A stretch of 12,981 nt of DNA, from the NCBI GenBank assembly GCA_020061125.1, contig JAGUYV010000348.1, forward strand, positions 1 to 12,981, given 5' to 3'. Below are positions 2,291-11,947 of the stretch, piece by piece. This DNA is from a bacterium. Its GTDB lineage: Bacteria; UBP15; UBA6099; DSWB01. Numbering within the stretch: the first letter of the stretch is position 1; each line of letters begins with the position of its first letter. The notes under the pieces are model-generated. The model worked only from the letters and a program-made list of their open reading frames with translations, ran no database searches and had not been told where the DNA came from. The translations under genes were made by a program, and so were the position numbers.

Positions 2291-4579
2291 TCACTTCCAG
2301 GCGTCGCAGTCGAGTTCTGGTTTGGCGCACAGGCCCTTGGCCCCTTCGAGATCCAGGGGCGTGCCCTTTTCATGGCACTTCACGCAGGTCGTGGCCCTGG
2401 TTTTCGCCTTGGCCGTGTGCGCATCGTGGCACTCGCCGCAGCGCGTGTGCGCCTTAATCTTGTGCAGACCCTTTTTCTGGATATCGGCATGGCATTTGGC
2501 GTTCGTGCAGTTCGAGAACAGCGCCTTGCTGTTCCAGTCGTGGGGCTTGTGGCAACCGCCGCAGTCCGGCTCCTTGGCGTGTTCCGCGGGCAGCTTGGCC
2601 TTGATATCCTGGTGACAGTCTTTGGACGCGCACCCGGCCACGGTGTTCTGGTGCGTATCATGGCATACTGTGCAGACCGTGTGTCTGGTTCCCAGGGACT
2701 GCTTGGCAGGCTCCATGTGGCACTGCGCGCAGGCTTTGGATCCGTCCCGCTTCCAATCAAAGGACACATGGCATTTGTAACAGGATTTATGGTTTTCCTT
2801 GCCGGGATTGCGCTTGCTGATTTCCGCGGGCGAGTGGCAGGTTTGCGAACAGGTGTCCATGCGGTGGCAGGACGCGCACTGCGCGAGTTCCGTGCTCTTT
2901 TTGGTATTGACATGGCCCTTTTCGGCCCAGTCGCCGCGGTGCGTGATGCTTGTCTGCGACTTGTGGCACGCGCCGCAGAACTGCTTGTTGTCGTGGCACA
3001 GGTTGCAGAACGGTTTCGAGATCTGCGCGGGCTGCTTGTGGGCTTTGTACCAATCTTTGGCCTTGTGCGTGGCCGGGGCGTTGGTCTTGTGGCAATCCAT
3101 GCACAGGTCCGGGCCGTGGCACTTGGCGCATTCCGCGGTCTGCGCCATGCTGGCGTTCTTGTGCTGCCCGGCGTTGAATTCCGGGGTGTGAGGCAGGGTC
3201 ACGGCCTGATGGCAACCGGGACCGCTGCACGAGCCGGCGCTGTGGCAGTTCTTGCACAGCCCGGTTTTGGACTGCGGATCTTTCTTGTGCGTATCCTTGA
3301 AATTGGCCGGGTGCGAGGGCGCGACCACTGCGGAAGATTTCTTGTGGCACGATGCGCAGAACGCCGTGGTGTGGCATGCCGTGCACTCATCGGATTCCGT
3401 TCTCTTGACTTTGCCCGCGGCGATGTCGCGCAGATGCGCGGCGTGTCCCATGGCCCATTCGGCCGGATGCGCGGTCTTGCCCTGGTGGCACGAAATGCAG
3501 AAGCCCGTGTCGTGGCATTCGAGGCACTTGTTGCTCAAAGCTGTATTGGACGCGAACAGCGGGTGCGTTTTGACAAATTCCTCGGGGTGCATGGCCCGGC
3601 CCGCGCCCTCCATCTTGAACGCCTGCCCGCGCTTGCCGTGGCAGTCGTTGCAGAACTCCGCGGTGTGGCAGTTGAGACCTTCGCAGGTTGCAACCTTGTC
3701 AGCAAACTTGCCGTGATCCTGTTTGAAAGTCTTGGCGTTGTGTTCTTTCTTGATTACATGGCAGTCGGTGCAGAAGTCGAAGGTGTGGCACTGGGTGCAG
3801 TATTTGCCGTTTTCCTTGGATTCCTTGACATGGTCGAAGCCTTCGGCTGGGTGCGGGTTCTGGGTCACATGGCAGCCCCAGCAGTATTCGCGGCTGTGGC
3901 ATTTGCTGCAATCCTGGCCCGCTTCTTTTGCGTTGCGGTGATGCGGCTGCGAGATGCCCGCTTTCTTGAGCTGCTCGCCGGTGACCGAGCCGAGCTTCAT
4001 GCCCTGGGGGGCGTGGCACACGCTGCACTCGGACGAGCCTTTGCCGTGCAGATCGTTGTGGCAGTTCAGGCACAGGGACCGGTTTTCTCCGGCCATGAGG
4101 GAGACCGCGGTGTCGGGCTTGTGACCCGTGCCCTTGTGGCAGACCAGGCAGGAGATATCTTTGTTGAAATGCGTGCCGTGGTTCAGCTTGATGCCGTTGA
4201 CCACGATGGTTCCCTGCTTGATTTTGCCCTCGTGGCAGGAGAGGCAATTGCCTTCGGACAGGTGCGGTTCGAGGGCCTTATGGGTTTTTTCGCCGCCGCG
4301 CCTGATTTTGGCCAGGGCCATGGCGGCCACGCTGGGCGCTTTGTGGCACTCGTCGCATGGCGTGTCATTATGAAGTGACACGGCCCACGAAGCGTATGGC
4401 GCGCGCATTTCGTGGCATGTTTTGCACAGGGCGTTGGGCGCGCCGGGATGGAACAGAGCGGCGAGCAGCGCCGGGGGCAGGATCACAACCGCGAGAATCA
4501 CGGCGGTTATGGCGATGGTTTTTTTGCGCCTGTTGAGGAGCTGGCTCGGGGAAAGGCTGGCGTTCTGGTTTTTGGGCAT
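2291..4579 (-). CDS. NapC/NirT-anchored multiheme c-type cytochrome, 32 heme motifs
   Basis: A 762-residue cytochrome with one N-terminal membrane helix (about 21-42) after a basic stretch (NRRKK), and the rest outside the cytoplasmic membrane. I count 32 heme-attachment motifs: 27 CxxCH, four CxxxxCH (at 299, 451, 650, 691) and one CxxxCH (577). The first part (CKTCHEM at 52, CDECH at 75, then 112 and 144) resembles the tetraheme NapC/NirT/NrfH quinol-oxidising domain. Residues 224-581 hold nine heme pairs with four residues between partners (five in one case), repeated every 37-53 residues; single motifs fill both flanks. Its likely role is electron transfer between the membrane and periplasmic or extracellular partners. 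The start chosen gives MPKNQN just before the anchor; the reading frame is open 61 codons further upstream but that part looks non-coding. No clear ribosome-binding site or promoter was found. Two extra Cys (751, 758) end the chain. It is divergent from rseC and near the rnf operon. Confidence 0.93.
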   Translation of the reverse strand: MPKNQNASLSPSQLLNRRKKTIAITAVILAVVILPPALLAALFHPGAPNALCKTCHEMRAPYASWAVSLHNDTPCDECHKAPSVAAMALAKIRRGGEKTHKALEPHLSEGNCLSCHEGKIKQGTIVVNGIKLNHGTHFNKDISCLVCHKGTGHKPDTAVSLMAGENRSLCLNCHNDLHGKGSSECSVCHAPQGMKLGSVTGEQLKKAGISQPHHRNAKEAGQDCSKCHSREYCWGCHVTQNPHPAEGFDHVKESKENGKYCTQCHTFDFCTDCHVIKKEHNAKTFKQDHGKFADKVATCEGLNCHTAEFCNDCHGKRGQAFKMEGAGRAMHPEEFVKTHPLFASNTALSNKCLECHDTGFCISCHQGKTAHPAEWAMGHAAHLRDIAAGKVKRTESDECTACHTTAFCASCHKKSSAVVAPSHPANFKDTHKKDPQSKTGLCKNCHSAGSCSGPGCHQAVTLPHTPEFNAGQHKNASMAQTAECAKCHGPDLCMDCHKTNAPATHKAKDWYKAHKQPAQISKPFCNLCHDNKQFCGACHKSQTSITHRGDWAEKGHVNTKKSTELAQCASCHRMDTCSQTCHSPAEISKRNPGKENHKSCYKCHVSFDWKRDGSKACAQCHMEPAKQSLGTRHTVCTVCHDTHQNTVAGCASKDCHQDIKAKLPAEHAKEPDCGGCHKPHDWNSKALFSNCTNAKCHADIQKKGLHKIKAHTRCGECHDAHTAKAKTRATTCVKCHEKGTPLDLEGAKGLCAKPELDCDAWK

Positions 4580-4634
4580 GGCTTGTGAATGGCGGGAGCG
4601 GAACAGACAGCGTGCGGCGCGGATGCGGAAACTG

Positions 4635-4663
4635 TTGGTGGCTTCCGGCGCGGGCGCTACAAT
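4635..4663 (+). promoter_or_regulatory. Candidate sigma70 promoter of rseC
   Basis: TTGGTG (4635-4640) and TACAAT (4658-4663) are separated by exactly 17 bases. Transcription would begin near 4670. The leader then contains a short stem-loop with a GAAA loop (GGCGG at 4673-4677 pairing CCGCC at 4682-4686) just before the Shine-Dalgarno GGAGG at 4696-4700. The -35 match is only 3 of 6, so this is a candidate. Confidence 0.5.
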
Positions 4664-4710
4664 ACAGTAGGCGGCGGGAAACCGCCCAACACCCTGGAGG
4701 AACGCGAACG

Positions 4711-5202
4711 ATGCCGGATGAACATGGAACCGTAGTGCGCGTGTTGAACAAAGATCTCGCACTGGTGCGCACGCAGCGCAGCGGCGCTTGCGAGGGGTGC
4801 ACGCAAAGCGGTTCCTGCCTCACCTTGAGCGGCGCCCACGCCGTGGTGGAAATCCGCGCCCGGAACGCCGCGGGCGCCCGCGAGGGCGACTCCGTGGTGT
4901 TGCGCATGAGCGACAGCGCGTTCTTGAGCGCGTCCTTCGCCATGTACATGGTTCCGGTGGCGGCGTTCATCGCCGGCGCCATATCCGCCAATGCGCTTGC
5001 CGCACGCCTTGGATTGAACGCCGACCTCGGCGCCTTCCTGGGGGGGATTGGGCTGTGCGCCCTTTCCTTTGTCATGATGCGCGTGATCCTGCGCTTCATG
5101 CCCCACCACGAAGATGCGCTCACTCCCGTGATCGTGTCCCGAAGCGCCGGGCCGCCCCAACAGCAGGCCTGTTCCCTCACGCACCCGGACCGGACGGATT
5201 AA
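4711..5202 (+). CDS. rseC: RseC/SoxR-reducing-system family membrane protein
   Basis: A 163-residue protein with the RseC layout: a short cytoplasmic N-terminal domain with a cysteine cluster GACEGCTQSGSC (Cys27, Cys30, Cys36), two membrane helices (about 71-95 and 106-128) and a short polar tail. In gammaproteobacteria RseC acts in sigma-E signalling and is linked to the Rsx/Rnf complex that keeps SoxR reduced; in other bacteria the family is commonly found beside rnf genes and is thought to help the complex, without a settled reaction. The ATG is preceded by GGAGG at 4696-4700 with 10 bases of spacing, which fixes the start; an earlier in-frame ATG would add an unlike extension. It is the only plus-strand gene here, divergent from the cytochrome gene and convergent with rnfB. 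No convincing terminator is seen in 5203-5300, only a 12-base palindrome over the stop codon (CGGATT/AATCCG, 5195-5206) and a later pyrimidine-rich tract. Confidence 0.85.
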   Translation: MPDEHGTVVRVLNKDLALVRTQRSGACEGCTQSGSCLTLSGAHAVVEIRARNAAGAREGDSVVLRMSDSAFLSASFAMYMVPVAAFIAGAISANALAARLGLNADLGAFLGGIGLCALSFVMMRVILRFMPHHEDALTPVIVSRSAGPPQQQACSLTHPDRTD

Positions 5203-5300: not shown

Positions 5301-7400
5301 TCACGCCTCGACGAACAATTCATCAAATGCAGACTGATCGAAGCACACATTGCCGCACTGCAGGCAGCGCTGGGACTCGCGATCGGCCTGGCCGGGCTTG
5401 AGGCCCAGCTCCACTTCCTTGAAGTTGAGCGAACGCTCGGCGATGGTCAGCTCGGGCATGTGCGCACGAGGCTCTTCCGCAACACCGGTGATGTGCGGAA
5501 TCAGCGCCTCGGGAGTGGGCTTGAGCAGTTCGCTGGGCGGCGCCGTGACTTCCTGCCCGGTCACGAACAGGTGAATGGCGCGCGCTGCGCGGCGGCCCGT
5601 GCCAAGCGCCTTGACCACGGTCTGCGGCCCCGTGAACACATCGCCCGAGGTGAACACGAACGGGATATTGGTCTGCAGGGTCTGCTCGTTGGCCGCGAAT
5701 GTGGACCACTTGGTGGTTTCCACGCGGTATTCCTCGGCTTCCTTTGCCGCGAACGACAGATCCGCGCGCTGGCCGATGGCGGACAGGATGTTGTCCACTT
5801 CCATGATCGTGTTCGAGCCTTCGATGGGCACGGGGCGGCGGCGGCCGCTGGCGTCCGGCTCGCCCAGTTCCATGCGGATGTATTCGAGCTGCGCCGCATT
5901 GCCGTCCTTGTTCGCATAAATCTTGGTGGGCGCGGCCAGAAAGTGGAACTTCACGCCCTCGCGCTCGGCTTCCACGATTTCAATCATGTTGGCGGGCATT
6001 TCCTTGCGCGTGCGGCGGTACAGGAGCGTGACATCCGCGCCGCGGCGCAGACTGGTGCGCGCGCAGTCAATGGCCGTGTTGCCGCCGCCGATGACAACTA
6101 CTTTCTTGCCAAGCGGAAGGGGCTTGTTCAGGCCCTGGCCGATGAGGAAGGTGATGCCGCCGAACACGCCCGGCAGGTCCTCGCCGTCGCAGCGCATGGC
6201 CGAACTGGTCCAGCAGCCAATGCCGAGCATGATGGCCTCGAAGCCGTCGTCCTCGCGCAGACTCTGGATGGTCATGTCCTCGCCCAGTTTCTTTCCGTAA
6301 TGCACGGGCACGCCCAGGTTCACAACCTGCTGGCATTCCCAGTCCAGAATTTTCTTGGGGAGCCGGTACTCGGGGATGCCGTAGCGGGTCATGCCGCCGA
6401 GCTTGGGCATCATTTCAAAGATTTCGGGGCTGTGGCCGAGCCTGCGCAGGAAGAACGCCGTGCTCAAGCCCGCGGGACCGCCGCCGATCACGGCCACGCG
6501 CTTGCCTGTGTTTCTGGCCACGCGGATGTTCAGCGTCGGACCCTGGTACATCTCGATGTCCGCGGCGTACCGCTTGAGGTGGTTGATGTTCACGGCCTCG
6601 TCCACGAAGCGGCGGCGGCATGCGTCCTCGCACGGGTGCGGGCACACGCGGCCGATGGACAGGGGCATGCAGTTGCGTTCCTTGATGGTTTCCACGGCGG
6701 CCAGGGGCATGCCATTCTTGATGTAGCGGATGTAGCGCGGGATATCAATCTGCGCAGGGCAGAGCTGGCGGCACGGGGGCACGCACTCGTCGGTGCGGTT
6801 GAAGGCCAGAAGCCGCTCGGACAGGGTTTCGAGGTGCAGGACATGGTGCGGGCAGTTTTTCACGCAGGTGCCGCAGCCCACGCACAAATTCGTGTTGATG
6901 ACCGGCATGTGATCCGGCCCCATCTCGATGGCGCCGAAGGGACACACGCTTTTGCAGGTGCCAAGACCCAGGCAGCTCATGCCGCATTCCTTGGCGCCGT
7001 CCCAGTACAGGGCGGCGGCGCGGCAGTCCTGGATGCCCTGATAATCGAAGCGTTCGTTTACGCGGTACGAACCGCGGCAGTTCAGAACCGCAACTTTGGG
7101 TTCAGCGTCCAGATCCACGGCCTGACCGATGGCGGCGCCCACACGGGCTGCGATGGCCGGACCGCCGGCCACGCACACATTGGCGCCGGCCTTGCCAGCC
7201 ACTACCGCTTCCGCTGCGGCGTTGCAGCCCGCAAACCCGCAACCGCCGCAGTTGGCGCCCATGAGCGCCTCTTCCACCATGGCGATGCGCGGATCCTCTT
7301 CCACGAAAAACACTTTGGAAGCCACTGCCAGCAGCAGCGAACACACGATGCCAAGGCCAAACATCATGGCCACGGCGATGATAATCGGGGTGATAGACAT
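5301..7400 (-). CDS. rnfB: RnfB fused to a GltD/NfnB-like FAD-NAD(P) oxidoreductase
   Basis: A 699-residue fusion; ordinary RnfB has roughly 200-330 residues. The RnfB part has a membrane helix (about 5-27), a [4Fe-4S] domain (Cys51, 54, 59, 76 in ANCGGCGFAGC) and a two-cluster ferredoxin domain (Cys140/143/149/153 and 173/176/179/183). The fused part, from about 200, follows the glutamate-synthase small-subunit plan: a cysteine-rich domain (Cys206, 210, 214, 244, 253, 257, 261), an FAD loop VIGGGPAG (304-311), a second nucleotide loop VIGGGNTAID (436-445) with YRRTRKEMPA (461-470), the FAD-closing TSGDVFTGPQT (584-594), and a C-terminal CLQCGNVC (679-686). The Arg-rich segment after the second loop is like that in NADPH-using GltD, so NADPH is possible. 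RnfB normally takes electrons from or gives them to ferredoxin; the fusion adds a flavin and nucleotide site in cis. The start has AGGA 8 bases upstream. It is last gene of the operon, 4 bases after rnfA. Confidence 0.95.
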   Translation of the reverse strand: MSITPIIIAVAMMFGLGIVCSLLLAVASKVFFVEEDPRIAMVEEALMGANCGGCGFAGCNAAAEAVVAGKAGANVCVAGGPAIAARVGAAIGQAVDLDAEPKVAVLNCRGSYRVNERFDYQGIQDCRAAALYWDGAKECGMSCLGLGTCKSVCPFGAIEMGPDHMPVINTNLCVGCGTCVKNCPHHVLHLETLSERLLAFNRTDECVPPCRQLCPAQIDIPRYIRYIKNGMPLAAVETIKERNCMPLSIGRVCPHPCEDACRRRFVDEAVNINHLKRYAADIEMYQGPTLNIRVARNTGKRVAVIGGGPAGLSTAFFLRRLGHSPEIFEMMPKLGGMTRYGIPEYRLPKKILDWECQQVVNLGVPVHYGKKLGEDMTIQSLREDDGFEAIMLGIGCWTSSAMRCDGEDLPGVFGGITFLIGQGLNKPLPLGKKVVVIGGGNTAIDCARTSLRRGADVTLLYRRTRKEMPANMIEIVEAEREGVKFHFLAAPTKIYANKDGNAAQLEYIRMELGEPDASGRRRPVPIEGSNTIMEVDNILSAIGQRADLSFAAKEAEEYRVETTKWSTFAANEQTLQTNIPFVFTSGDVFTGPQTVVKALGTGRRAARAIHLFVTGQEVTAPPSELLKPTPEALIPHITGVAEEPRAHMPELTIAERSLNFKEVELGLKPGQADRESQRCLQCGNVCFDQSAFDELFVEA

Positions 7401-7404
7401 AGCG

Positions 7405-7986
7405 TTATCCTTTCACCATCCCTGTGAAGCCCCAGAACGCCAGAGCCATGAGGCCCGCTGTCACCAGGCCCAAGGCCGTGCCTTCCAGCGATTTGGGAAT
7501 GCGCGATATGGCGAAGCGCTCCCGGATGCCCGCGAACAGCACCAGCGCCAGGCCGAAGCCCGCGGCAGAGGCAAACGAGAACACCACCGAATTGACGAAG
7601 TTGTATTCATATTGAATGTTCAGAAGGCATACGCCAAGCACCGCGCAGTTTGTGGTGATCAGCGGCAGAAAAATGCCCAGCGCGCGATACAGCGGCGGCA
7701 TGGCCTTCTTCATGAACATTTCCACGAACTGCACCAGGGTGGCGATAACGAGGATGAATACGATGGTCTGTAGGTAAACGAGGTCGAACGCCTCAAGCAC
7801 GAAGGTCTGCACGGCCCAGGTAATCGCACCCGCCAGGGTAAGCACGAACACCACCGCCATGCCCATGCCCATGGCCGTATCCATTTTTTTGGATGTGCCC
7901 TGAAACGGACAGTTGCCCAGGAACTGGGCAAGAAGAATGTTCTTGACCAGAACCGCCGAAATTACCATTAAAAGAAATTTGGACAA
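7405..7986 (-). CDS. rnfA: Rnf complex membrane subunit RnfA
   Basis: A 193-residue polytopic membrane protein typical of RnfA, one of the two inverted, related subunits that form the ion channel and bind a [2Fe-2S] cluster in the middle of the membrane. Cys26 (LGNCPF) and Cys114 (TTNCAVLG) are the expected cluster ligands, matched by Cys25 and Cys108 of RnfE. The start codon is TTG: it gives MSKFLLMVISAVLVKN, which fits the family N-terminus, and a near-ideal ribosome-binding site GGGGGTGA lies 6 bases upstream. The next ATG would cut six residues from the first helix. It lies between rnfE and rnfB, in canonical order. Confidence 0.96.
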   Translation of the reverse strand: MSKFLLMVISAVLVKNILLAQFLGNCPFQGTSKKMDTAMGMGMAVVFVLTLAGAITWAVQTFVLEAFDLVYLQTIVFILVIATLVQFVEMFMKKAMPPLYRALGIFLPLITTNCAVLGVCLLNIQYEYNFVNSVVFSFASAAGFGLALVLFAGIRERFAISRIPKSLEGTALGLVTAGLMALAFWGFTGMVKG

Positions 7987-8010: not shown

Positions 8011-8601
8011 TTATTTCTTGGAGCTTGCCAGGTTCATAAGCCCGAGCAGAATGCCGAGGAACACGAACGCGCCGGGCGCTTCCTTGGCGAACAGGAACGG
8101 CTTGAAGCTGGAGGCCATCACCTGATAGCCGTAGATGGTGCCGACGGCCAGAACTTCGCGGATCGCCGCAAGAACGAACAGGGCGATCGTATATCCCAGA
8201 CCCAAGCCCAGGCCGTCTGCGAATGACAGCATGACCCCGTTTTTGTTTGCGAACGCCTCCGCGCGGCCCAGCGGAATGCAGTTCACCACGATTAACGGGA
8301 TGAAAATGCCGAGTTGCTGGTACAGCGGGTACACGAACGCATGCGTCACCATTTCCACGATGACCACGAATGTGGCCACGATGATGATGAACATGGCGAT
8401 GCGCACCTTGGGTGGAATCACATTGCGCATGGCTGATATCAGCACATTCGAGCAAACGAGCACGAATGTAACGGCCAGACCCATGCCGATGGCCTTGGAA
8501 CAGAGGTCCGATACGGCCAGCGCCGGACACAGGCCCAGCACCAGGCGGAATGGCGGAATCTCTTTCCAGAATCCCTTTGTCAGTTCTTGGAAAAATCTCA
8601 T
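8011..8601 (-). CDS. rnfE: Rnf complex membrane subunit RnfE
   Basis: A 196-residue membrane protein, the partner of RnfA in the channel core. The N-terminus (FWKEIPPFRLVLGLCPALAV) matches the family, with Cys25 in LGLCPALAV and Cys108 in VVNCIPLGRAEAFA as ligands of the shared intramembrane [2Fe-2S] cluster. Several hydrophobic helices fill residues 20-190, and the protein ends with a short lysine-rich tail. The ATG has AGGG a few bases upstream. The 43-base gap before it, after rnfG, is largely taken up by a very stable perfect hairpin; the 24-base gap after it carries the rnfA ribosome-binding site. Confidence 0.96.
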   Translation of the reverse strand: MRFFQELTKGFWKEIPPFRLVLGLCPALAVSDLCSKAIGMGLAVTFVLVCSNVLISAMRNVIPPKVRIAMFIIIVATFVVIVEMVTHAFVYPLYQQLGIFIPLIVVNCIPLGRAEAFANKNGVMLSFADGLGLGLGYTIALFVLAAIREVLAVGTIYGYQVMASSFKPFLFAKEAPGAFVFLGILLGLMNLASSKK

Positions 8602-8644: not shown

Positions 8645-9229
8645 TTATTTCGCGGAGTTCAGTATGGAATCCTTGTTTTTAACATAAAAACCGGTAGCGT
8701 CCTTGGCCGCAGCCATGATGCCCTTTGAGGAAAAGGTGGCGCCGCTCATGCCGTCTATCTTGCCGCCGTTGACCTTGAGATCAAACGGATCCGCCACCTT
8801 GAGCTGCTTGAACGCCGCGAGGTACACCGGCTCCTGCTTTGTGCCGACGCCCTTGGTTTCCGTGTGTGTGAGAATGGCGACATCCATGATGGCGTCCGTC
8901 TTTACATCTATGGCAACCAGAACTTTGATGTTGCCGCCGAAACCGCCGGCCGAGGCGTCCACGCCCACGGCGAACACTTCGCCGCCCTTTTTGCACGGGA
9001 ACACCGGCCGGATGATGTCGCGGCCCTTGTCGTCCTTGCCCGCTTTCAGCTCGATTGTGTCCACAATGGGATCGTTGTCGAAACCGGGCACGATCTGCTT
9101 GAGCTTGGGCGCATACACCTGGTTCAGCTCGGCCATCTTGATAGGCTCTTTGGTCACGGCGTACATGGCCGACAGCCCGAACCCGGAAATCACGCTAAGC
9201 AGCGTGAGCGCCACGACCATTTTAATCAT
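8645..9229 (-). CDS. rnfG: Rnf complex flavoprotein subunit RnfG
   Basis: A 194-residue protein with one N-terminal membrane helix (about 3-25) and an extracytoplasmic FMN-binding domain. The flavinylation motif is present as DGMSGAT (159-165), which fits the Dxx(s/t)gAT consensus recognised by ApbE, with Thr165 as the FMN acceptor. The start MIKMVVALTLLSV fits the family and lies one base after the rnfD stop, suggesting translational coupling; an in-frame ATG 18 codons further upstream lies inside rnfD and is unlikely. No apbE/rnfF gene occurs in the window, so the flavin transferase must be encoded elsewhere if this Thr is modified. Confidence 0.95.
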   Translation of the reverse strand: MIKMVVALTLLSVISGFGLSAMYAVTKEPIKMAELNQVYAPKLKQIVPGFDNDPIVDTIELKAGKDDKGRDIIRPVFPCKKGGEVFAVGVDASAGGFGGNIKVLVAIDVKTDAIMDVAILTHTETKGVGTKQEPVYLAAFKQLKVADPFDLKVNGGKIDGMSGATFSSKGIMAAAKDATGFYVKNKDSILNSAK

Positions 9230-9230
9230 T

Positions 9231-10226
9231 TCACGCACGGGCGCGTACCTCCTTGACAACTCCCAGAACCCGCGGGCGGACACGGTCGAGAATCGGGGTC
9301 CACAGGCTCATGAACAGAATGGCGAACGGCACGCCGTTTGGATACAGGCCGAAAATGCGGATGAGCATGACCATGACACCGCAGCCGAGGCCGAAGACTA
9401 TCTTTCCGGCGGTGGTGACGGGCGCCGGGGAATACTCGGTGGAAAGGAAGAAAGCGCCCAGCATGGTATTGCCGGCCAGCACATGCAACAGGGGCGATGC
9501 GATTTTGGTGTCGCCGCCGAACCCCTGTGCCGCGGCCACGGCCGCAAACACGAACACACCCGCAAGAAACGATGCGGGAACAAGCAGGCAAATGCGTCGT
9601 CTCACAACAAGATACACGCCGCCAGCGAGCACTGCGGCCGCGCATACCCCGATGGGGCCAGCCACTCGCCCCCAGAACAAATCGGCCATGGGGATTTTCT
9701 CAACAAATGCCCCGCCGTATTTGAACAGCGCGTCCAGGGGCGCTTCCCTGGCGATGTTGGCCGCGGATTGCGCCGCTCCATGCGCCGCCGGGGAGGACCA
9801 TGCGGTGATTTCCGTGGGCCATGACAGTATCAGCACCACCCACCCCAGAAGCACGGGGTGGAACGGGCTGCATCCGATGCCTCCAAAGAAATGCTTGCCG
9901 ACCACAAGGGCGAACCCGACGCCCACCACCGGCGCCCACAGGGGAACGCCCGATGGCAGCAGCATGGCAAACAGGAACCCGAGATATACGGCATGCAGAT
10001 TGCCGAGAGTCATGGGTCTCTTTGTAGCCTTTTGCGCCAGGGTTTCAGCGAGAACCGCTGACGCCACGCACACGGCGATTACCGCGAGTGCGCGCGCCCC
10101 GAATCTCACAAAACCCATTACCGCGGCCGGGATCAGCGCGATAATGAAGTCCAGCATGATGCTCCGCACTGAATTGCCGTTGTGGCAAAACGGCGCAGGA
10201 GACACGATGAGTCTGGTTTCGCTCAT
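9231..10226 (-). CDS. rnfD: Rnf complex membrane subunit RnfD, flavin-acceptor Thr missing
   Basis: A 331-residue polytopic membrane protein of the RnfD/NqrB family. It has the expected start ETRLIVSPAPFCHNG, the conserved GKHFFGGIGCSPFHPVLLGW (110-129), MLGAFFLSTEYSPAPVTTAGK (255-275, with a break not written here) and the C-terminal YPNGVPFAILFMSLWTPILD. RnfD normally carries an FMN on the Thr of a motif such as SQATPLD or SGATPL. Here the matching stretch reads NIAREAPLD (157-165): the Thr position is Ala162, the upstream Asp and Ser are also absent, and no other SGAT-like motif is seen. The rest of the fold looks intact. The ATG has no strong ribosome-binding site; it follows rnfC after a 93-base gap that contains a hairpin and a tiny open frame. 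It is second gene of the operon. Confidence 0.95.
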   Translation of the reverse strand: MSETRLIVSPAPFCHNGNSVRSIMLDFIIALIPAAVMGFVRFGARALAVIAVCVASAVLAETLAQKATKRPMTLGNLHAVYLGFLFAMLLPSGVPLWAPVVGVGFALVVGKHFFGGIGCSPFHPVLLGWVVLILSWPTEITAWSSPAAHGAAQSAANIAREAPLDALFKYGGAFVEKIPMADLFWGRVAGPIGVCAAAVLAGGVYLVVRRRICLLVPASFLAGVFVFAAVAAAQGFGGDTKIASPLLHVLAGNTMLGAFFLSTEYSPAPVTTAGKIVFGLGCGVMVMLIRIFGLYPNGVPFAILFMSLWTPILDRVRPRVLGVVKEVRARA

Positions 10227-10319: not shown

Positions 10320-11843
10320 TCAACTTTGCTCCGTCTTTTTTTCTTCGCTCTGTGCGGGGGCCTCCGTGTTTGCTTCCGCGGGTTTTTCCTCGGGTTCGGC
10401 CTCCTGTGCGGGCGCGGCTTCGGCTGCGGCCACGGTCTGGTCCGCAGTCTGCTCGGCTTCGGGCTTGAACGCCGCCGGTTCGGCCTCGGGGGTCTGTTCC
10501 TCGGGGTCCTGGGCCGCGATTTCACACAGGGCGGCTTCGAGTTCGGCCTGGCGCTTGAGTTCGAGCTTGGCGATGCGGATGAATTGGAGCATGGGCCTGC
10601 GCGCCGGGCATACATATCCGCACATGCCGCATTCCACGCACGCATCCAGGCCCTGGCTGGTTTGCGCGCTCTCATATTGCTTGAATTCACAGAACCTGGT
10701 AAGCAGGTTGGGCTGCAGGTTGACCGGGCAGACCGAGACGCAGTCGCCGCAGTTGATGCACGGGGCTTCGTCCGGGATGTCCGACGCCGCGCCGTGCAGG
10801 GCGATAACCGCATCGGTTTCCCGAGTCACGGGCGCGTTGCGGTCATAATTGGCCCAGCCGGTCATGGGACCGCCCGCGACCAGGAATTCCACGCCCACGC
10901 GCAGTCCGCCGCAGGCCTCGACCACATCGCCCAGCCTCATGCCCAGGGGCACGCGCAGCATGCGGGGCCAGTACACTCCCGGGCCGGTCACGGTGATGAC
11001 CTTTTCGGTCAGCGGCTTGTCCTGGCGCACGGCTTCGAGCGCGGCCAGCACGGTTTCGGCGCGCACCATGGCAATGCCCGCGTCCGCTGCGGAGCCGCCA
11101 ATGGGTATCTCTTTGCCGTAATGCCTCTTGACCATGAGCAGCGGCAGGTTGTCGGGATACAGCAAAGGCGGGGTGTCAATCACATCAATGCTGTTCATGT
11201 CCTTGAGTTTGCGCATCACGCCCTTGTAGTCGTCCTGGTGGACGAGCAGGGTTGTGTGCGGATTGCCGAGCAGGTGGCGCAGCAGGGCCGCGCCCCAGCC
11301 GATTTGATCGGCGAACTGCGAGGCCACGCGGCGGTTGGTGCACACCATGGGTTCGGCGTCGTATCCGATTATTAATAAAGAATCATAAGTCTTTAATTGC
11401 ATGAGGGGGTCGAGCAGAGCGCGCAGGGGCCGCGCGCTGGGGCCGGTTTCCACCACTCCGCGCCCGGTGATGATTTTCCACAGTTTTTCGCGGTCTTCAA
11501 GCAGGAAATCCTTGATTCCCTGTGCGGGCGCGGCCTCTGCGCCGGCGCCAGGCTCGAGGACCACGGCGGGCGAGTATTCGCCGAACGGCGTGGGATGCTT
11601 TTCCAGAATGTCGGCCACTGTGCCGGAAACCGGCGCGAACACATCCGCGGCGTATGCGTTTCCGGCCGTGCCGATGACCTGGCCCTTTGCCACAGTGTCG
11701 CCCTTTTGCACCGCGGGCGCGCACGCAGGCCCGGAATGCTGGCGCAGGGGAATGATCAGGCGTTGCGGCGTTTCAGGTTCCTTGATCGGAGTCTGGGCCA
11801 GCTTGCCTGCCTTGCCTATTGTCCTGTAGAGGGTTTTCTTCAC
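10320..11843 (-). CDS. rnfC: Rnf complex subunit RnfC lacking the FMN/NADH signatures
   Basis: A 507-residue RnfC, first gene of the operon. Seen in order: the N-terminal biotinyl-like domain (QRLIIPLRQHSGPACAPAV, KGDTVAKGQVIG, FAPVSGTVADI), a divergent Rossmann-like NuoF-related region (about 110-260), an SLBB-like domain (280-330), two [4Fe-4S] motifs (Cys362/365/368/372 and 402/405/408/412) and a Glu/Ala/Pro-rich tail (about 440-507). Ordinary RnfC has GxGGAGFP, ECEPY and YPxGGxKQL in the nucleotide region; here these read GRGVVETGPSARPL (127-140), DAEPMV and YPDNLPLLMVKRHYGKEIP. The FMN and NADH sites therefore look degraded while the iron-sulfur part is intact. The GTG start gives MKKTLYRTIGKAG and has GGGAG (11857-11853) 9 bases upstream; an ATG 31 codons earlier lacks support. 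An AT-rich island with rare-looking codons lies at 11368-11398. Confidence 0.94.
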   Translation of the reverse strand: MKKTLYRTIGKAGKLAQTPIKEPETPQRLIIPLRQHSGPACAPAVQKGDTVAKGQVIGTAGNAYAADVFAPVSGTVADILEKHPTPFGEYSPAVVLEPGAGAEAAPAQGIKDFLLEDREKLWKIITGRGVVETGPSARPLRALLDPLMQLKTYDSLLIIGYDAEPMVCTNRRVASQFADQIGWGAALLRHLLGNPHTTLLVHQDDYKGVMRKLKDMNSIDVIDTPPLLYPDNLPLLMVKRHYGKEIPIGGSAADAGIAMVRAETVLAALEAVRQDKPLTEKVITVTGPGVYWPRMLRVPLGMRLGDVVEACGGLRVGVEFLVAGGPMTGWANYDRNAPVTRETDAVIALHGAASDIPDEAPCINCGDCVSVCPVNLQPNLLTRFCEFKQYESAQTSQGLDACVECGMCGYVCPARRPMLQFIRIAKLELKRQAELEAALCEIAAQDPEEQTPEAEPAAFKPEAEQTADQTVAAAEAAPAQEAEPEEKPAEANTEAPAQSEEKKTEQS

Positions 11844-11947
11844 TGGTGAATACTCCCGCAAAGCCGCTTGTGCATCGGATTTTTGGTCACTTTTATGCAA
11901 ACGGCCGCCTTTGGCACAGCCATCATATCTTGTCACAAAAAAATTTG

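Follow-up and report, generated by a model that had tools for sequence, protein, structure and literature searches.

The window, by which we mean the whole 12,981-nucleotide stretch analysed here, is one complete contig (C6) of a fragmented UBP15 metagenome-assembled genome (78.8% complete, 513 contigs). Its genes, by coordinates and strand, include:

2291..4579, minus strand: membrane-anchored multihaem cytochrome c with 27 CXXCH motifs and a NapC/NirT-like N-terminus
4585..5202, plus strand: RseC/MucC family gene (PF04246), which probably starts near 4705 and converges with rnfB
5301..7400, minus strand: rnfB–GltD fusion gene, a single open frame of 699 aa with homologues elsewhere
7405..7986, minus strand: rnfA (TIGR01943)
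8011..8601, minus strand: rnfE (TIGR01948)
8645..9283, minus strand: rnfG (TIGR01947, just above cut-off), SGAT flavin-attachment motif present
9231..10226, minus strand: rnfD (TIGR01946), flavin-attachment motif lost
10320..11936, minus strand: rnfC (TIGR01945), FMN/NAD loop lost, both [4Fe-4S] motifs present

The fusion is the final gene of this rnfCDGEAB operon. Beyond the cytochrome, the minus strand at 198–2221 holds a nucleotidyltransferase (198–1178; Pfam) and a GHMP-kinase-like open reading frame recognised by eye only (941–2221). As a preliminary description of this DNA had it, one uninterrupted 699-codon frame joins RnfB to a GltD-like part; its coordinates for the gene, its junction near base 6800 and the motifs it named are correct. 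The frame encodes:

7311..7391, minus strand: RnfB N-terminal membrane helix, residues 4–30 (sequence and structure model)
7173..7250, minus strand: RnfB flexible [4Fe-4S] domain, C51/C54/C59/C76 (Pfam FeS 48–77; invariant in 55/55 fusions)
6852..6986, minus strand: RnfB two-cluster ferredoxin domain, C139–C183 (Pfam Fer4 families; fusion alignment)
6543..6797, minus strand: Fer4_20 (GltD/DPD-type Fe-S domain), residues 202–286 including Lys276 (Pfam)
6468..6485, minus strand: FAD loop GGGPAG, residues 306–311 (sequence and fusion alignment)
6072..6101, minus strand: second nucleotide loop, residues 434–443, with GGGNTA at 438–443 (sequence and fusion alignment)
5991..6020, minus strand: YRRTRKEMPA, likely NADPH-binding segment, residues 461–470 (motif comparison)
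5343..5366, minus strand: CLQCGNVC near the C-terminus, whose C679, C682 and C686 are probably additional Fe-S ligands (55/55 fusions)

The N-terminal part has the full set of RnfB attributes (membrane helix, FeS domain, two-cluster ferredoxin domain, place in an rnf operon), and its three [4Fe-4S] motifs are C51/54/59/76, C139/143/149/153 and C173/176/179/183. Family profiles find both halves: the NCBIfam rnfB model (TIGR01944) passes at 72 bits against a cut-off of 68.7, and GltD-family models cover residues 205–688. Pfam places FeS at 48–77, a dicluster ferredoxin at 142–188, Fer4_20 at 202–286 and Pyr_redox_2 at 301–602, with the boundary between RnfB and Fer4_20 around residue 200 (about base 6800). 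A structure model built from few homologues (mean pLDDT 46.8), which we use for the N-terminal helix claim only, shows a helix at residues 4–30 with pLDDT of about 70–90. The protein ends in a CxxC-x3-C motif (C679, C682, C686) that is invariant in all 55 aligned fusions, and these cysteines probably complete its GltD-type clusters.

This fusion is a genuine gene. The window is a single MAG contig, and an assembly join or a frameshift had been named in advance as what could undo the claim. The probability of such an artefact is now negligible: five further UBP15 assemblies, and many Desulfobacterota, encode full-length homologues of equal architecture. Six of the seven UBP15 genomes, i.e., the host and those five, carry the full-length fusion (55–59% identity), and it was absent at E 1e-150 from 186 further genomes in a wider sampling. 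A phylum-wide sample of 297 Desulfobacterota genomes, centred on one Desulfovibrionaceae-assigned genome reached via a dsrA search, held full-length fusions at 51–57% identity in 22 genomes and 19 more fusion places at 37–43% identity, often as a second copy; among 149 genomes of inferred Desulfovibrionaceae, 34 matched the fusion at E 1e-130, nearly all at full length. The names Desulfobacterota and Desulfovibrionaceae are here inferred from a DsrA that is 75% identical to a D. vulgaris DsrA sequence. A pattern scan of genome contigs caught the UBP15 fusions and ordinary RnfB but missed those of Desulfobacterota. No further fusion sequence was found in a scan of viral contigs, and a plasmid search with the fusion returned mostly GltD-like matches, one place (H3) spanning query residues 91–688 at 30.6%.

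In both UBP15 and Desulfobacterota the fusion gene usually closes an rnfCDGEAB operon. A tree of the RnfB part sets the fusions apart from 20 sampled ordinary RnfB (support 0.985), with UBP15 on its own branch (0.992); the fusions probably have one origin, and the tree gives no direction of transfer. At some loci (L135, L140–L144, L146, L157, L159–L162, L164, L165, L168 and L169) no other rnf gene was recognised near the fusion, within a stretch that for most reached about 8–9 kb on each side. Two versions of about 600 aa (L170, L171) begin to match the window protein at residue 101, the RnfB N-terminus apparently gone. Formate-dehydrogenase-like open reading frames lie close to the fusion at L152, L154, L156, L163, L166 and L167, several of them split (about 135 + 538 aa), possibly at a selenocysteine TGA.

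The closest solved relatives of the module are 9bov, 9n5u and StnC (8oh5), followed by NfnL (5jca). Its FAD and NADP motifs are present in 30/30 of the closest fusions, in which YRR...EMPA is also invariant; the same motif occurs in the NADPH enzymes NfnL and StnC, and the earlier lean towards NADPH is, on this motif comparison, a reasonable one. In 25 more distant fusions, forming two separate clades, the second nucleotide loop is degenerate and nearly all Fe-S cysteines are present; paralogues degenerate in both this loop and the YRR segment are L152–L169, L201, L202, L204, L205 and L207–L209. The preliminary description had also raised the prospect of flavin-based bifurcation within the complex, which in an NfnAB-like scheme would take place at the FAD of the GltD part. 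The fold shared with NfnB speaks for it, as does Arg346, whose aligned residue in StnC, R239, corresponds to R201 of NfnB (PMC10482914). However, where NfnL aligns a Glu, the window protein and all 30 fusions of >47% identity have Lys276 in place of the NfnB glutamate ligand; this residue matches StnC K170, which occupies the position of that glutamate at the proximal cluster, and StnC was shown to be non-bifurcating (PMC10482914). Because the fusion shares its lysine with StnC and lacks the proximal-cluster Glu of NfnB, and as no NfnA-like partner appeared among the scanned window proteins (part of the window ORFs), we consider Nfn-type bifurcation very unlikely.

Further differences from ordinary Rnf lie in the other subunits. 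Ordinarily, the NuoF-like fold of RnfC accommodates both FMN and NAD(H) (PMC9588780, PMC12174285). Its G-x-G-G-A-x-F-P loop was found in 30/31 ordinary operons versus 0/22 RnfC in or near fusion operons (the 22 include the rnfC of L166, which neighbours a stand-alone fusion, and the near duplicates L150 and L151), and the flavin-attachment motif of RnfD (around Thr153 of 7zc6_D) in 30/33 ordinary versus 0/22 fusion operons, all being raw locus counts that include shared ancestry; a regular-expression match in the L133 RnfD, at residue 378 and thus elsewhere in the protein, was not counted. The RnfC loop was likewise found in none of 18 further Desulfovibrionaceae fusion loci. Three solved RnfC (7zc6, 8ahx, 9eri) have the FMN loop, and in their phmmer alignments with the window RnfC it is replaced by GRGVVETGPSARPL. 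The window RnfC scores 21.2 bits for Complex1_51K, below the cut-off of 31.2, and 31.3 bits for SLBB, above the cut-off of 27. The [4Fe-4S] motifs of RnfC are widely kept (the first in 22/22 fusion-associated RnfC, the strict second in 14/22), and SGAT or a close variant is present in every fusion operon where RnfG was found. Against a canonical ferredoxin:NAD+ Rnf, then, the window complex lacks the RnfC loop and the RnfD motif but retains that of RnfG; the host genome also carries an ordinary Rnf operon with an intact RnfC loop. The proposal that RnfB itself exchanges electrons with NAD(P)H gains from the complete FAD/NAD(P) module but needs amending in one respect, namely that the site does not come on top of one in RnfC, the RnfC FMN/NAD loop being gone.

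Cytochrome genes recur beside these operons. The 27-haem cytochrome of the window lies on the rnf strand, but the opposite-strand rseC gene stands between it and rnfB, which counts against its being the partner of the complex; RseC also neighbours many fusion operons, and a cytochrome with 22 haems occupies the corresponding place in two further UBP15 genomes. All 18 Desulfovibrionaceae loci open with a cytochrome c gene of 5 or 10 haem motifs, after which come rnfCDGEA and the fused rnfB; in these and several others the cytochrome gene is immediately 5′ of rnfC. At L132, L133, L136, L138, L139, L149, L152, L155 and L156 no cytochrome of at least four haems was found in the examined stretch, and such operons again count against a cytochrome partner. 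The gene order cytochrome-rnfCDGEA recurs, again with the RnfC loop missing, in two Desulfovibrionaceae genomes whose RnfB is small (266 and 305 aa). We dropped the idea that RnfC loss is bound to the fusion itself, as these two share that loss; they suggest instead that it tracks the cytochrome and that the fusion is a further step. The host genome also contains dsrA (G000:C313, L098) and thus possibly comes from a sulfite or sulfate reducer; such a potential has also been reported for a UBP15 genome (PMC11484514).

From sequence as a whole, we would reconstruct the complex as a large-RnfB, cytochrome-linked Rnf that passes electrons from NAD(P)H via RnfB, RnfAE and RnfG to multihaem cytochrome c, a reading to which we give an even chance. 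In it, the C-terminal polyferredoxin part of RnfB would have given way to a module of GltD/StnC type, with FAD, two [4Fe-4S] clusters and an NAD(P)H site, at which NAD(P)H, most likely NADPH, would reduce the FAD or be formed. Electrons would move through the RnfB clusters to the RnfAE [2Fe-2S] cluster, across the membrane to the covalent RnfG flavin outside, and from there to the cytochrome rather than back via RnfD and RnfC to NAD+; RnfAE would probably couple this step to ion movement, and ferredoxin may still enter at the two-cluster domain of RnfB. If the core keeps its coupling direction, the acceptor beyond RnfB must have a potential above that of NAD(P)H, so that a ferredoxin acceptor at RnfC would be energetically unworkable. 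These energetics suggest a path from NAD(P)H through RnfG to cytochrome c, or its reverse, as do the flavin sites, retained in RnfG but lost in RnfD and RnfC, and the cytochrome genes nearby. The cytochrome path also gains from the ordinary Rnf in the host genome and from StnC, one of the closest solved relatives, which channels NADPH electrons into Fe-S clusters (PMC10482914). The nearest tested precedent for this path is the Methanosarcina Rnf, which uses no NAD(P) and whose RnfG is the proposed cytochrome c donor (PMC4023990). Against it count the open-access literature searched, in which we found no biochemistry of any large-RnfB Rnf, and Desulfovibrio alaskensis G20, in which mutating the decahaem cytochrome of the operon left fitness on ethanol, formate and H2 unchanged (PMC4841214), though the G20 RnfB may or may not be fused.

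The reverse flow, in which periplasmic cytochrome c supplied by hydrogenases or formate dehydrogenases would feed RnfG, RnfAE and RnfB and an ion gradient would drive reduction of NADP+ and/or ferredoxin, seems to us unlikely, if worth keeping in view. A link of this kind between the periplasmic cytochrome pool and NAD(P)H/ferredoxin has been proposed for Desulfovibrio Rnf (cited in PMC4287179), the host dsrA fits a sulfite or sulfate reducer, and G20 rnf mutants did not grow on H2, formate or ethanol; yet the same study reads Rnf as a generator and not a consumer of the gradient, and the silent G20 cytochrome mutant weighs here too (PMC4841214). Less probable still is an outlet at RnfC, by which RnfB would send the electrons it receives from ferredoxin or NAD(P)H by way of RnfD to the [4Fe-4S] clusters of RnfC, and these to a cytoplasmic one-electron acceptor. 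With its two [4Fe-4S] motifs RnfC may indeed hand electrons to some further partner, the conservation of those motifs and the operons that show no cytochrome are in keeping with this, and another RnfC partner (an “other acceptor”) was argued for in D. toluolica (PMC5109826). But RnfC has also lost its feeder, the flavin site of RnfD, and NqrA exemplifies an RnfC relative that persists without redox cofactors (PMC12174285). Should the path from NAD(P)H to cytochrome c hold, these complexes might form a third Rnf/Nqr branch, i.e., NAD(P)H:cytochrome c oxidoreductases whose path ends at periplasmic RnfG, with the RnfD and RnfC flavins lost and an NAD(P)H input convergent with Nqr, a broader proposal that we hold tentatively and at somewhat less than even chance.

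Rnf ranks among the main energy converters of anaerobes, and its usual annotation is ferredoxin:NAD+ oxidoreductase. Should complexes with a large RnfB be unable to reduce NAD+ at RnfC and connect NAD(P)H with cytochrome c instead, the metabolic models of many sulfate reducers would have a basic step wrong, and this might explain why an attempt to demonstrate ferredoxin:NAD+ activity failed in vesicles of D. alaskensis (PMC4841214). Large-RnfB complexes also offer a natural experiment on which flavins ion coupling needs.

The fusion itself is not new, as a large RnfB with NAD sites (“Rnf2”) has already been described in Desulfobacteraceae (PMC5109826, PMC11887813). In Desulfobacula toluolica Tol2, Desulfococcus multivorans and D. 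autotrophicum, Rnf2 resembles the window complex in its RnfB, which reaches about 700 aa and has NAD-binding sites (PMC5109826, PMC11887813), and in its RnfC without an NADH domain; the D. multivorans rnf2 cluster includes a cytochrome gene, and D. multivorans and HRM2 have two Rnf types each, with an ordinary Rnf1 in the same genome as in the window host (PMC5109826). Rnf2 belongs to the Desulfobacteraceae core genome and was abundant in all six strains studied (PMC11887813). It comes, however, from a different phylum, its equivalence is by published description only, and the match to Tol2 is incomplete, as the Tol2 RnfC is described as lacking both NADH and SLBB domains (PMC5109826) whereas SLBB is above cut-off in the window RnfC. 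A 2024 survey reported that many Desulfovibrionaceae have lost rnfB and that their operon ends with a gene for an FAD-dependent oxidoreductase (PMC11434368); in our 18/18 loci the gene after cytochrome-rnfCDGEA is a fusion that retains the RnfB part, and the survey probably misread fused RnfB as loss.

Outside this group the likenesses are partial. StnC (8oh5; PMC10482914) shares a GltD-like NADPH module that feeds an Fe-S chain and has Lys at the proximal cluster, but it is fused to a NuoG-like part and feeds StnAB outside any membrane-bound Rnf. The Methanosarcina acetivorans Rnf with its multihaem cytochrome shares RnfG as the proposed exit to cytochrome c (PMC4023990), yet its RnfB has no flavin module and its donor is ferredoxin. 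Na+-NQR, like the window complex, combines an FAD input subunit that oxidises pyridine nucleotide with an RnfC relative devoid of an NAD site (PMC12174285); in contrast, its NqrF is an unrelated FNR-type module, its acceptor is quinone and its NqrA has no Fe-S cluster.
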